From positions 124,001-188,000 of the forward strand of contig NZ_VSZS01000064.1 of the NCBI RefSeq assembly GCF_008180155.1: a DNA stretch of 64,000 nt, in the 5' to 3' direction. The notes beneath the pieces are model-generated. The model was not told where the DNA came from. It saw only the letters and a program-made list of their open reading frames with translations, and did not search any database. Origin of the DNA: Neoaquamicrobium microcysteis (GTDB lineage: Bacteria > Pseudomonadota > Alphaproteobacteria > Rhizobiales > Rhizobiaceae). A program made the position numbers and the translations under genes. The stretch's first letter is position 1; each line of letters starts with the position of its first letter. Shown piece by piece: positions 4,407-19,986 of the stretch.

Positions 4407-4934
4407 TTAGAAGGGCTTCACCACGACCAGGATGACGATGACGATCATCAGCACCGTCGGGATTTCGTTGACGATGCGCCAGTGACGTGCGGGCTTCTCA
4501 TTGCGATCGTCCGCGAAGCGGCGCACGGAGGCCGAAAGATAACCGTGGACGCCCGACAAAAGCAGCACCGCGAGAATCTTGGCGTGTAGCCATCCGCCGG
4601 CAAAGTCGAAGCCGGACCATGCGAGCCACAGCCCCAGAACCCAGGTGACGACCATCGCCGGGTTGATGATGGCGCGCAGAAGCCTGCGTTCCATCACCTT
4701 GAAGGTCTCGGATTTCTCCGAGCCGGGCTGTGCCTCCGCATGGTAGACGAAAAGCCGCGGCAGATAGAGCATGCCCGCCATCCACGAGATCACCGCGATG
4801 ACATGCAGGGCCTTGATCCAGGGGTAGAGCCCCTGTGGATCGAGCCATAAGAGCAGCACCGTCAGCACTGCGACTATGGCCAGGCCCGCCACCGCGCGAA
4901 CCGCCACATTGCCGCTGTCGGAACCCTGCGTCAT
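4407..4934 (-). CDS. hemJ: Protoporphyrinogen IX oxidase HemJ
   Basis: HemJ is the membrane-bound, heme-containing protoporphyrinogen oxidase that replaces HemG or HemY in many alphaproteobacteria, forming protoporphyrin IX late in heme synthesis. The 175-residue protein shows four to five hydrophobic segments and the conserved stretch [20 protein letters not shown], with the histidine family members use to hold heme, followed by a second conserved arginine- and histidine-containing loop. The start overlaps the hemE stop by 4 nt (4931-4934), so the two are translationally coupled in a small heme operon. This fits a family (formerly UPF0093) usually found beside hemE. No other protoporphyrinogen oxidase gene is seen in the window. 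Confidence 0.93.
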
Positions 4935-5962
4935 CGACCTGCCCCCCGAACCAGCGCAATCATCTTCTCGACATGCGCGATCGGGGCTTCCGGCGTGATG
5001 CCGTGCCCGAGATTGAAGACCAGCGGTCCGTTACCGAGCTCGCGCAGGATCGCCGCCACGCCTTCTTCCAGCGCCTGGCCGCCGGCCACGAGCCTGAGCG
5101 GGTCGAGATTGCCCTGTATCGCGCCCTCTGCCTGAAGTGCGCGCGCCTGGCTCCAGGGCACGCTCCAGTCGAGCCCCAGCGCCGTCACGCCCGTCCTTGC
5201 CCGGTAGGAACCGTAGAGGGCTCCAGCGCCCTTCGGAAAGCCGATGATCGGCACGTTCGGGTGAACGGCACGGACCTTTTCCACGATACGCGCCACCGGA
5301 CGAACGCAATATTCCTCGAAGCAGGCCTCATCGAGCACGCCCGACCACGAATCGAAAATCTGCACGGCATCCGCGCCCGCATCGATCTGTCGGATCAGAT
5401 ACTCGCCAGACTGCTCGGCAAGCAGACCAAGCAGATCGCGCATCTTATCGGGATGGCGATAACCGAATAGCCGCGCCGGCGCCTGATCCGGCGTTCCATG
5501 CCCGGCGATCATGTAGGTCGCCACCGTCCACGGCGCGCCGCAGAAGCCCAGCAGCGTCGTGGTCGCCGGCAACTCACCACGCAGCCGCCGCACCGTCTCG
5601 TAGACCGGGGCCAGATGGTCGTGAAATCCTTCGCCGTCGAGCTTGCCGATCTCGGCAGCCTCGATGGGCGTCATCAGCGGCCCGCGTCCTTCCTCGAAGC
5701 GAAGATCGCGGCCAAGTGCGTGAGGCACGACGAGGATGTCGGAGAACAGGATCGATGCATCAAAGCCGAAACGGCGGATCGGCTGAAGGGTCACCTCGAC
5801 TGCCAGGTCGGGATTGTAGCAGAGGTCGAGAAAACTTCCCGCCTTTTTGCGCGTTTCCCGATACTCGGGAAGGTAGCGTCCAGCCTGACGCATCATCCAG
5901 ATCGGAGGGGGAAAGACCGCTTCCCCGTTCAGGACGTCGAGGACGATCCGTTTCTCGGCCAT
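4931..5962 (-). CDS. hemE: Uroporphyrinogen decarboxylase
   Basis: HemE removes four carboxyl groups from uroporphyrinogen III to give coproporphyrinogen III in the cytoplasm. The 343-residue protein carries both family signatures: [15 protein letters not shown] at residues 20-34 and [12 protein letters not shown] in the middle. The catalytic aspartate in FSDILVVP is Asp75. The ATG at 5962 begins [11 protein letters not shown], which fits homologues. It reads away from the predicted origin at 5963-6364, as in Caulobacter and rhizobia where hemE marks one side of oriC, and it overlaps hemJ by 4 nt downstream. Origin-proximal control by CtrA or DnaA is plausible but inferred. Confidence 0.97.
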
Positions 5963-5996
5963 GCTGTACCTCTGCGAACCGGGCGCCAGAAAACAA

Positions 5997-6011
5997 GTAA
6001 GATTCTTTTAA
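5997..6011 (+). promoter_or_regulatory. Candidate CtrA-binding site
   Basis: GTAA-N7-TTAA matches the alphaproteobacterial CtrA consensus TTAA-N7-TTAA at 7 of 8 positions. A third, poorer half-site (TTCT) follows seven bases further on. The location within the AT-rich part of the origin resembles Caulobacter, where CtrA silences initiation. It is only a short motif, so false positives are possible. Confidence 0.4.
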
Positions 6012-6045
6012 ATGAATCTTCTGATTCTATGACTCTGTTGGAATC
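6001..6045. other. Cluster of five GANTC (CcrM methylation) sites in the origin
   Basis: GATTC at 6001, GAATC at 6014, GATTC at 6023, GACTC at 6031 and GAATC at 6041 are the recognition sequence of the cell-cycle methyltransferase CcrM. About one per 256 bp is expected with even base use, so five in 45 bp is a strong cluster. Confidence 0.8.
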
Positions 6046-6203
6046 GGCGATTACGGCTTGTCCACGCTCGGCCGCCAAAACTCAATGCGCAAAGCGCCGC
6101 AGCCGCCGTGTACCGCCATCGGTGAATAGTGGGGAAAGTTCCGGAAATCGTTGCCGGATCAGCTGCTTGCCGACCACCCCCATCTGCGTCCGAAAACGTC
6201 CAT

Positions 6204-6212
6204 TGTGGATGT
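6204..6212 (-). other. Weak DnaA box
   Basis: On the minus strand this reads ACATCCACA, 7 of 9 matches to TTATCCACA. It lies in the origin region in the same orientation as the box at 6272. Confidence 0.4.
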
Positions 6213-6271
6213 CGACGTTCTATCCCCGTTTTCCCGCACACGGGCGCAACGATTTCCGATGCGGGGTGAAT

Positions 6272-6280
6272 TGTGGATAG
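6272..6280 (-). other. DnaA box
   Basis: On the minus strand this reads CTATCCACA, 8 of 9 matches to the DnaA consensus, within the hemE-ppsR spacer. Confidence 0.7.
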
Positions 6281-6329
6281 ATCGGGGTCTGATACAGTCC
6301 GCCTCCGCGGCGCGGCGAATTTCCGCCCG

Positions 6330-6338
6330 TTATCCACA
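6330..6338 (+). other. Perfect DnaA box
   Basis: TTATCCACA matches the DnaA consensus exactly and sits 27 bp upstream of the ppsR start within the predicted origin. Confidence 0.85.
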
Positions 6339-6364
6339 CCAGCCAACAGGGCAGCATCCGGCCT

Positions 6365-7186
6365 GTGAACAAACCGCAGAGCTTCTTTCATCTCCACCTG
6401 ATCTCCGATGCCACCGGCGAGACGTTGCTGGCGGCAGGCCGCGCCGCGTCCGCGCAATACAAGGATGCGCGCGCCATCGAGCACATCTACCCGCTCATTC
6501 GCACCGAAAAGCAGCTGCTGAAGGTGCTGGAGGAGATCGACGAGACGCCGGGCATCGTGCTCTACACGGTGGTGGACCAGGAGCTGGCGCAGCTCATCGA
6601 TACGCGCTGCGCGGCGATGGGCCTGCCCTGCGTTTCGGTCCTCGAGCCGGTTCTGGGCGTGTTCCAGTCCTATCTCGGCGCACCGGCCGGCCGCCGGGTC
6701 GGCGCGCAGCACGTCCTGGATGCGCAATATTTCCGCCGCATCGACGCGCTGAACTTCACCATGGAGCACGATGACGGCCAGCTTCTCAATGATGTCGAGG
6801 AAGCCGACGTCGTGCTGATGGGCATCTCGCGAACGTCGAAGACGCCGACAAGCATCTATCTGGCCAATCGTGGCATCAAGACCGCCAACATCCCTATCGT
6901 GCTGGGTGTGCCGGTTCCCGAAAGCGTCATCTATGCCAAGCGCCCGCTGGTGGTGGGACTGGTGGCGACGGCCGAGCGCATCTCGCAGGTGCGCCAGAAC
7001 AGGGTGCTCGGCAGTTCGGTGGGTTACGATTCGCAGACCTATATCGACCGCACCGTCATCGCGCAGGAACTGGCCTATGCAAGGCAGCTCTGCGCCAAGC
7101 ACGGCTGGCCGATGATCGATGTCAGCCGCCGTTCCATCGAGGAAACGGCTGCGGCAATCGTTGCGCTGAAGGCAAAGACGCGCTAA
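6365..7186 (+). CDS. ppsR: Kinase-pyrophosphorylase (DUF299), regulator of pyruvate phosphate dikinase
   Basis: This family phosphorylates (with ADP) and dephosphorylates (with Pi) a threonine on pyruvate phosphate dikinase or PEP synthetase, switching it off and on. The 273-residue protein starts [14 protein letters not shown] after a GTG codon at 6365 and has the P-loop-like [11 protein letters not shown] near residue 160 that defines the family. It is the first gene to the right of the predicted origin and faces hemE across it, as its homologue does in Caulobacter. The GTG is preceded by a poor ribosome-binding site. The target dikinase is not in this window. Identification is firm; the substrate is inferred. 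Confidence 0.93.
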
Positions 7187-9288: not shown

Positions 9289-10011
9289 ATGCGCGAGATC
9301 ATCTTCGATACGGAAACGACCGGGCTCGACGCGCGCGAGGACCGCGTCATCGAGTTCGGCGGTATCGAGCTGGTCAACAAGTTTCCGACCGGGCGCACCT
9401 TCCATCATTACATCAACCCGCAGGGCCGGGCGGTTCACCCCGAGGCGCTGGCCGTCCACGGCATCGGCGACGACCAGCTCGTCGGCAAGCCGACCTTCAA
9501 CGAGCTGGCCGGGGAACTGGCGGCGTTCCTGGATGGGGCGATGCTGGTCGCGCACAATGCGAATTTCGATATCGGCTTCCTGAATGCCGAGTTTGCCCGG
9601 CTGGGCATGCCGGCCGTCGATCCGGGCGTGGTCATCGACACGCTGGCGCTCGCGCGGCGCAAGCATCCGATGGGTCCCAACTCGCTCGACGCGCTCTGCC
9701 GGCGCTACGGCATCGACAACAGCCACCGCGAAAAGCACGGGGCGCTACTCGATTCGGAATTGCTGGCAGAGGTCTATATCGAGCTGATGGGTGGCAAGCA
9801 GGCCGCGTTCAGCCTCGAGATCCAGAGCCAGACTGTCATCGTCGAAAGCGAAGTCGATGTCGTGGCTGCGGTTCGCATGCGCGACCGGCCGCTGGCCCCC
9901 CGGCTGCAGCCGGAAGATTTGGAGGCGCACCGCGCCCTTGTCGCCAGGCTCGGCAGTGGCGCGGTCTGGAAGCAGGTCGATCAAGCCTATGCGGACGAGG
10001 CCTCGGCCTGA
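9289..10011 (+). CDS. dnaQ: DNA polymerase III epsilon subunit (3'-5' proofreading exonuclease)
   Basis: DnaQ edits mismatches behind the replicative polymerase as part of the Pol III core. The 240-residue protein begins MREIIFDTETTGLD, where Asp7 and Glu9 form exonuclease motif I; motif II lies in LVAHNANFDIGFLN and motif III in HREKHGALLDSELL, giving a DEDDh enzyme. The ATG at 9289 is preceded by GAAGGAG (9274-9280); an in-frame upstream start would add 16 unrelated residues. The C-terminal part, which binds the polymerase, is less conserved. A bidirectional terminator separates it from convergent secB. Confidence 0.96.
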   Translation: MREIIFDTETTGLDAREDRVIEFGGIELVNKFPTGRTFHHYINPQGRAVHPEALAVHGIGDDQLVGKPTFNELAGELAAFLDGAMLVAHNANFDIGFLNAEFARLGMPAVDPGVVIDTLALARRKHPMGPNSLDALCRRYGIDNSHREKHGALLDSELLAEVYIELMGGKQAAFSLEIQSQTVIVESEVDVVAAVRMRDRPLAPRLQPEDLEAHRALVARLGSGAVWKQVDQAYADEASA

Positions 10012-10037
10012 GCCGGAGCAGTGCGCGGCGACGCTGC

Positions 10038-10051
10038 GATTCACGTGAAAC
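10038..10051. other. parS-like site between dnaQ and secB
   Basis: GATTCACGTGAAAC matches the parS core at 13 of 14 positions and lies in the short dnaQ-secB spacer, about 4 kb right of the predicted origin. Confidence 0.6.
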
Positions 10052-10061
10052 CATTACTGCA

Positions 10062-10096
10062 TAGAAAAAAGGCCCGGATCGCTCCGGGCCTTTCTC
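10062..10096. terminator. Bidirectional terminator, dnaQ / secB
   Basis: A perfect 8-bp stem GGCCCGGA...TCCGGGCC (10071-10090) is flanked by an A-tract on the left and T-rich sequence on the right, so it can serve both convergent genes. Confidence 0.85.
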
Positions 10097-10114
10097 GTTT
10101 GAAACGGCTGCGCC

Positions 10115-10636
10115 TCAGGCGGTGCCGCTTGCCTGCACCTTGGCGCGGGCCTGCTCTTCGGCCATGCGCTGCTGGAACATCTGCGCGAAATCGATCGGAT
10201 CGATCATCAGCGGAGGGAAGCCGCCATTGCGGGTGCAGTCGGCGACGATCTGGCGGGCGAAGGGGAATAGCAGTCGCGGGCATTCGATGAACAGGATCGG
10301 CAGCATGTGCTCCTGCGGGAAGCCGACCGCGCGGAAGACGCCGCCATAGACCAGCTCGACGTTGAACAGAACGTCCTTGTCCGCGCCCGCCTTGGCGTTC
10401 AGCGTCAGCGTCACGTCGTACTCGGTATCCGAAATCGGATTGGCGTTGACGTTGACGTTGATGTTGATGCCCGGCGCCTTGTCGCGGCTGCGCAGCGAAT
10501 TGGGGGCGTTGGGGCTCTCGAAGGAAAGGTCCTTGATGTACTGGGCAAGGACGTTGAGCGACGGCTGAACGCCGTTTCCGGCCGTTGCGCCGCCTGCCGG
10601 GGGCGGGGTGGTGGTTTCTTCTGGTTTCTTGGCCAT
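10115..10636 (-). CDS. secB: Protein-export chaperone SecB
   Basis: SecB is the cytosolic tetrameric chaperone that keeps precursor proteins unfolded and hands them to SecA. The 173-residue product has the family core, including [19 protein letters not shown], a variable acidic/asparagine-rich strand, and [23 protein letters not shown] with the conserved aromatic and cysteine positions. An alanine/proline-rich N-terminal tail of about 25 residues precedes the core, as in other rhizobial SecB. It lies convergent to dnaQ and 94 bp downstream of fxsA on the same strand. Confidence 0.97.
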
Positions 10637-19335: not shown

Positions 19336-19986
19336 ATGCGCGTCGCCATCATCGACTACGGCTCCGGCAATCTGCGTTCGGCGACCAAGGCTTTCGAGCG
19401 CGCCGCGCGCGAAGGCGGCATCGCTGCCGAGATCGACCTGACCGCCGACCCGAACCGCGTGTGCACGGCCGACCGCATCGTGCTGCCCGGCGTCGGCGCC
19501 TATGCCGACTGCAGCGCCGGGCTTCATGCGGTGGAAGGCATGGTCGAGGCGATCCGGGACGCGGTCGAAAATCAGGGGAGACCATTCCTCGGCATCTGCG
19601 TCGGCATGCAGCTCATGTCTTCGCGAGGCCTCGAAAAGACGATCACTCAGGGTTTCGGCTGGATCGAGGGCGACGTGAAGGAGATCACGCCGTCCGACCC
19701 GTCGCTGAAGATCCCGCAGATCGGCTGGAACACGATTCACGTGAAACACGACCATCCGCTTTTCGCCGGCATCCCGACGGGGGATGATGGGCTGCACGCC
19801 TACTTCGTGCATTCCTATCATCTGGACGCGGCGCGGCCGGGCGACGTTCTGGCCACCGCCGACTATGGCGGCCCGGTCACGGCCGCCGTTGCGCACGGCA
19901 ACAAGGCCGGAACGCAGTTTCACCCCGAAAAGAGCCAGAAGCTCGGTCTGGCGTTGATAACCAATTTCCTGCGATGGAAGCCATGA
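19336..19986 (+). CDS. hisH: Imidazole glycerol phosphate synthase, glutamine amidotransferase subunit
   Basis: HisH releases ammonia from glutamine and passes it to HisF to form imidazole glycerol phosphate and AICAR. The 216-residue class I glutaminase has the nucleophile Cys88 in GICVGMQLM and the His-Glu pair in FHPEKSQ near the end. DYGSGNLRS at residues 7-15 is the usual N-terminal loop. A parS-like palindrome lies in the coding sequence at 19734-19747. HisF is encoded three genes downstream, with DUF1330 and hisA between. Confidence 0.97.
19734..19747. other. parS-like site inside hisH
   Basis: GATTCACGTGAAAC matches the parS core at 13 of 14 positions and is the same variant as at 10038. 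It encodes part of WNTIHVKHD in HisH, so both functions would have to be compatible. Confidence 0.5.

Follow-up and report, generated by a model that had tools for sequence, protein, structure and literature searches.

The question raised by this locus is whether the gap between the divergent genes hemE and ppsR is the origin of replication of the chromosome and, if so, which part of it is worth following. Unless a contig or locus is named, positions refer to the window, i.e. the whole stretch of 64,000 nucleotides that was analysed (G000:C43:124001-188000). The assembly comprises 4.84 Mb in 68 contigs. Contig C43 has 351,674 bases, 348,000 of which were read for the DnaA box and stability scans.

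The hemE-ppsR gap in this genome and its relatives

The gap occupies positions 5963-6364 (C43:129963-130364) and is exactly 402 bp long. On one side, hemE (4931-5962, minus strand) encodes a uroporphyrinogen decarboxylase (Pfam URO-D PF01208, E 1.9e-109). On the other side, ppsR (6365-7186, plus strand, GTG start), a DUF299/COG1806 gene, matched Pfam Kinase-PPPase (PF03618, E 2e-87), a family that we take to be the same as DUF299. The lengths, the orientation and the Pfam matches agreed with the original prediction of a 402-bp gap between divergent hemE and a DUF299 gene. The Pfam-matched neighbours were mnmE, rho, maf, coaE, a DnaQ-type exonuclease gene and secB. The GC content of the gap was 57%, compared to 66% for the window. 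Judged by PpsR, the closest named relatives were an Aquamicrobium MAG and Mesorhizobium sediminum, with 93% identity each.

The oriC of Sinorhizobium meliloti has reportedly been mapped experimentally next to hemE, at the same location as the gap studied here. The Caulobacter origin, Cori, is described as sitting between hemE and COG1806 (PMC1914354), so the predicted likeness to Caulobacter was borne out by the flanking genes. Besides these genes, DnaA boxes, an AT-rich stretch, an IHF site and GANTC sites are reported for Cori of Caulobacter crescentus and are also found in our gap (PMC1914354, PMC3973325).

For comparison, 110 loci were fetched, made up of 80 named loci and 30 from sampled genomes (our own included; some of the latter were the same places as named loci). 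A divergent hemE stood beside ppsR in 109 of the 110, the exception being L019, where no hemE was found. Distinct gaps numbered 105 and measured 363-748 bp, 84 of them falling at 380-420 bp (88 of 109 without removal of duplicates). A ppsR match was absent from 12 of the 60 sampled genomes, and those were left out of further comparison. The set of 93 gaps used below consists of those, out of the 105, that hold the GANTC core described further on (up to 4 mismatches). They are mostly from Mesorhizobium, and the 12 core-less gaps came from genomes with PpsR 59-71% identical. In several Mesorhizobium loci (L026, L028, L034, L057 and others) the core lay about 90-350 bp farther from hemE than is usual, with its distance to ppsR unchanged.

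Origin elements and the probable start of the chromosome

DnaA boxes were searched as TTRTCCACA, and those with up to one mismatch were regarded as near-consensus. The 348 kb of C43 held 36 such boxes. Four of them begin inside the gap (6058 plus, 6272 minus, 6330 plus and 6364 minus), and the gap was the only 402-bp window of the scanned sequence with more than one. Box C (6330-6338, plus strand) is TTATCCACA, the perfect box that had been predicted, and it is the sole perfect one in the 348 kb. As TTRTCCACA it was exact in 69 of the 93 gaps and one base off in 17, i.e. within one mismatch in 86. The two further opposite-strand boxes of the prediction fared differently. Box B at 6272-6280 (minus strand, CTATCCACA) is a good box with one mismatch, and its pattern TGTGGANAA was exact in 82 gaps and had one mismatch in the other 11. 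The box at 6204-6212 (minus strand, ACATCCACA) is weak, with two mismatches. In that part of the gap a TGTGGAT-type box was nevertheless found within one mismatch in 70/93 gaps versus 5.8% of shuffles, mostly about 10 bp off the 6204 place in the relatives. Two boxes had been overlooked. Box A at 6058-6066 (plus strand, TTGTCCACG, one mismatch to TTRTCCACA) was weakly conserved (up to two mismatches in 25/93 gaps versus 4.4% of shuffles). The other, TTGTTCACA at 6364-6372 (minus strand, one mismatch in our sequence), starts at the final base of the gap, from which it extends over the ppsR start codon. Caulobacter is different in its boxes, for which TGATCCACA is reported (PMC4285127), whereas those of our gap are of the TTRTCCACA type.

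An IHF-like site, GATCAGCTGCTTG, with one mismatch to WATCARNNNNTTR, was found at 6157-6169 (plus strand). It recurred within one mismatch in 71 of the 93 gaps versus 2.4% of shuffles, and its position is conserved. The motif TCTGATACAGTC at 6288-6299 (plus strand) was exact in 75/93 gaps and could be the -10 region of a promoter for ppsR; a consensus scan for a sigma-70 promoter of ppsR found none. The conservation levels of box B, box C, the IHF-like site and TCTGATACAGTC were matched by shuffled segments in at most 2.4% of cases, for patterns that were picked after the alignment had been viewed. The stretch 6271-6299, in which TTGTGGAYAA is followed by TCTGATACAGTC, was among the best kept; a promoter of ppsR may overlap with a DnaA box here.

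The box pair TTGTGGA...TTRTCCACA occurred once in our whole genome, at the gap. The exact pair was present at the locus in only three of eight same-genus genomes; this speaks against the origin reading, as does the absence of ppsR matches from 12 sampled relatives. As a general origin finder the pair was rejected, since only 7 of 30 genomes contained it. Four of these (G000, G003, G005 and G014) had it at the ppsR locus and two (G006 and G016) on a contig other than that of ppsR, and the seventh, G037, had no ppsR match. Because of this distribution the pair marks the gap in our own genome yet is no general tool.

No conserved CtrA site was found in the gap. A one-mismatch TTAA-N7-TTAA at 5997-6011 was, on visual inspection of the alignment, not conserved among the relatives, and the CtrA sites of Caulobacter Cori thus differ in having no conserved equivalent here. 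Some origins of Wolbachia and Ehrlichia are described as having a weak CtrA feature or none (PMC1914354), and CtrA sites were therefore not taken as defining.

The predicted AT-rich core was confirmed at the hemE side. The probable DNA unwinding element (5989-6045) is 70% AT, compared to 34% for the window. By nearest-neighbour energy, the 50 bp from 5989 formed the third least stable separate stretch in the 348 kb, and ranked sixth when 80 bp were considered.

Sites of parS type were also located nearby, as predicted. Four parS-like sites lie at 1145-1160 (2 mismatches), 1182-1197 (1 mismatch), 1220-1235 (2 mismatches) and 19733-19748 (2 mismatches). With two 3-mismatch sites, at 10037 and 60193, the window held six sites of parS type, against 0.07 expected from shuffles. 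Genome-wide, six parS-like sites with up to 2 mismatches were found, all on C43; five of them are no more than 14 kb from the gap, and the sixth is 134 kb away. The genes parB and parA (L118:8817-9695 and 9735-10532) lie 7-9 kb from the gap. In our genome and the seven others of the genus (8/8), the sites with up to one mismatch shared a contig with ppsR and were no more than 10 kb from it. In G054, which is a single contig, both one-mismatch sites were 5-7 kb from ppsR, and in G033 three perfect sites were 11-13 kb from ppsR, with three weaker ones up to 65 kb.

A GC-skew switch had been expected at the gap, and a minimum elsewhere had been named as a result that would refute the prediction. 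The minimum of the contig was instead at C43:271986, about 142 kb from the gap and not within 129963-130364. At 20, 100, 130 and 200 kb the skew did not change sign across the gap, and the 50-kb values differed in the wrong direction. Nor did the polarity of GGGNAGGG switch there on our contig. With skew values of at most 1.6% on both flanks, the GC-skew counter-evidence is weak, and skew is reported to be insufficient for several alphaproteobacteria (PMC1914354). Skew was also sampled in three relatives with long contigs (G022, G005 and G060; 20 stretches of 20 kb each), their contigs being handled as circles, with circularity unproven for G005 and G022. In G022, of the same family, the best GC-skew origin was the orthologous locus, and over 400 contiguous kb the minimum lay 17 kb from this locus. 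The best fit was elsewhere in G005 (0.0152 versus 0.0114 at the locus) and in G060 (0.0065 versus 0.0051). The GGGNAGGG polarity values at the locus and at the best position were 2.55 and 2.65 for G022, 1.85 and 2.15 for G005, and 1.45 and 1.45 for G060.

The skew minimum at C43:271986, together with a weak parS-like site at 263941 of that contig, would suit a chromosome that starts elsewhere, either there or near dnaA, with the hemE-ppsR gap being a conserved double promoter region. We consider this very improbable. C43:260001-280000 holds just two single boxes, 946 bp apart, so that the skew minimum was rejected as an origin. The gene dnaA lies on contig C47, and no box with up to one mismatch was present in the 3,486 bases around it; the dnaA upstream region, which contains eight scattered GANTC sites, was also rejected. 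In addition, five of the six parS-like sites and parAB are located by the hemE-ppsR gap, and the box pair is unique to it in our genome.

Since the gene context, the box cluster, the unstable AT-rich end, parS/parAB and the conservation in relatives agree, and the dnaA locus has no box cluster, we are confident that the gap is the oriC of the primary chromosome, of the alphaproteobacterial hemE/COG1806 type. Such an origin is in itself ordinary, at the place expected from relatives. Its location fixes coordinate zero of the primary chromosome and helps in placing oriC in relatives. The predicted coordinate zero holds for the primary chromosome alone, because three genes for RepC-type initiators sit on other contigs (C16:7604-8125, C38:151734-152255 and C19:3282-3785). 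These genes suggest that the genome has further replicons, perhaps as many as three of a repABC-like type, each of which would have an origin separate from that of the chromosome.

A GANTC array in the probable unwinding region

The original prediction did not mention that the unstable AT-rich end carries five GANTC sites, of CcrM type, within 45 bp (6001-6045). They are GATTC at 6001-6005, GAATC at 6014-6018, GATTC at 6023-6027, GACTC at 6031-6035 and GAATC at 6041-6045, and the second to fourth are referred to below as core sites 1 to 3. GANTC is scarce in the window (89 observed versus 322 expected from shuffles), and the next tightest non-overlapping five on the contig span 528 bp. When the local 120 bp were shuffled, at most three GANTC per 45 bp were reached, in 15 of 5,000 shuffles. 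Across the 105 gaps the maximum per 45 bp was five in 8 gaps, four in 23, three in 60, two in 13 and zero in 1. Outside the gaps, three per 45 bp were reached once in the sequence flanking 80 of the loci, which measured about 6 kb for most of them.

The core, GANTCTTNTGATTCTNNGASTCTGT, had a single match in our genome with up to 3 mismatches, at the array, and one in each of the seven same-genus genomes. At the same threshold the 25-base core was present in 19 of 60 genomes, 16 of which had it at the ppsR locus. It was on another contig in G048 and G058, G035 had a second match elsewhere, and G034, which had the core, gave no ppsR match. By information content the core was the best-kept part of the gap, a ranking that the core-based choice of the 93 gaps favours. 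The three core sites were intact in 83, 81 and 93 of the 93 gaps, respectively, the middle base being free in site 1, always T in site 2, and C or G in site 3. The outer sites were kept less often. A site like the first (GANTC within 20 bp outside the core) was present in only 22/93 gaps, and the fifth was intact at the same spacing in only 28/93.

In our genome the cluster is at most about 85 bp away from the hemE start, gcrA is present, and GcrA is reported to favour promoters with methylated GANTC (PMC8116508). The cluster could therefore be a CcrM/GcrA-controlled hemE promoter that merely adjoins the origin. The spacing in the 93 gaps weakened this reading, which we regard as unlikely. The distance from the core to ppsR was 343-368 bp (sd 2.7) and that to box B was 249-274 bp (sd 2.5) when the box B match was sought near ppsR; when the whole gap was searched and the earliest of the best matches was taken as box B, the distance was 113-260 bp (sd 21.8). 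In contrast, the distance from the core to hemE ranged from 29 to 395 bp (sd 47) and exceeded 70 bp in 14 gaps. Because the ppsR distance is nearly constant and the hemE distance varies, we assign the array to the origin and not to the hemE promoter.

Base changes were counted on the ppsR tree of the 93 gaps. At core site 3, no changes were inferred in GA and TC, versus 8 in the middle base. At core site 1 the middle base had 12 changes, versus 3-6 at the four fixed bases. Core site 2 was reversed, with a fixed middle base and 5 and 3 changes in GA. As the middle base changes more than GA and TC, sites 1 and 3 fit a methylase target, whereas the opposite pattern of site 2 points to a different cause for the conservation of part of the block. 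The counts support putative selection on the GANTC letters at two of the core sites and not at the middle one.

The same counts bear on another explanation, by which single-strand DnaA contacts (DnaA-trio-like, as judged by eye) or plain melting would account for the conservation of the block, the GANTC letters being a by-product. The middle GATTC is consistent with this, having an invariant middle base and a TTCT part kept better than its GA. The outer GANTC sites come and go, and the more distant gaps retain part of the block only, several of them as TTCTTAGAGTC. However, a by-product would not lead one to expect a third core site with 8 changes in its middle base and 0 in GA/TC, or a first one with 12 middle-base changes against 3-6 at each of its fixed bases. 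We give this explanation somewhat less than an even chance. In the third core site (6031-6035), the middle base was C or G and never A or T in the 93 gaps, and the core selection pattern favours C or G.

Possible role of methylation in initiation

The array lies where the origin would open. By analogy with E. coli and Caulobacter, DnaA would bind the boxes on the ppsR side at 6272 and 6330, and perhaps those at 6204, 6364 and 6058, with assembly aided by an IHF-like bend at 6157. The DnaA filament would then open the AT-rich end on the hemE side (5989-6045), where the helicase would be loaded, and ParB on the parS sites a few kb away would segregate the new origins. CcrM would methylate the five GANTC sites of the opening region towards the end of the cell cycle, and they would remain hemimethylated once the origin has fired. 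The methylation state of the unwinding element could thereby discourage re-initiation or facilitate the next round.

In E. coli, oriC is flanked by other genes, and the order of its parts is like that of our gap. That origin is reported to open at three AT-rich 13-mers, the left of which contains one of its Dam GATC sites, and to be held by SeqA when hemimethylated (PMC5145175, PMC4285127). Methylase sites in the opening region, an IHF site and TTATCCACA boxes are thus common to both origins (PMC5145175, PMC4285127), the difference being GATC and Dam there versus GANTC and CcrM here. By this analogy, CcrM methylation of the unwinding element may prime or time initiation, as Dam and GATC do in E. 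coli.

A more specific form of the proposal is that in Mesorhizobium and Aquamicrobium the unwinding element is an array of CcrM targets whose full methylation late in the cycle licenses one initiation per cycle, either by lowering the cost of opening or by removing a reader of hemimethylated DNA. We put this forward tentatively and hold it to be rather doubtful. A CcrM-type methylase gene is present in our genome (one match with a RAMA domain; among 14 control genomes only Caulobacter has one), and so is a GcrA gene. We know of no protein that reads hemimethylated DNA at this origin, and GcrA is no more than a candidate for the reader of origin methylation. In Agrobacterium, CcrM depletion is reported to have hardly changed the duplication of ori1 and to have affected the RepC-dependent ori2 (PMC11514494). 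The ori1 result, together with the retention of the outer GANTC sites in a minority of gaps, counts against the methylation step. The repABC origins (Agrobacterium ori2 and pTiR10) share with our gap a GANTC-rich replication region for which control by CcrM has been proposed (PMC11514494, PMC6090056). They differ in being RepC-dependent and of plasmid type, and the three RepC matches of our genome are on contigs other than that of the gap.

If correct, the licensing proposal would describe a counterpart of Dam and GATC at the E. coli oriC, reached with a different methylase. It could also be one reason for the essentiality of CcrM in several rhizobia and relatives; CcrM is reported to be essential in several alphaproteobacteria besides Caulobacter (PMC6090056). 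An origin with GANTC sites is no novelty as such, because several of these motifs have already been described for that of Caulobacter and its close relatives (PMC3973325). No GANTC array of the present kind was found for this group in the titles and abstract openings that made up the literature searched, with subscription papers mostly outside it. Unlike the ordinary origin around it, the conserved array in the unwinding end is the part worth following. It provides a short and sharply defined target for the question of whether CcrM methylation acts directly on a DnaA-dependent chromosomal origin here. The GANTC sites upstream of dnaA, eight in about 0.9 kb (L111:181-1066), may mean a CcrM-linked control of dnaA.
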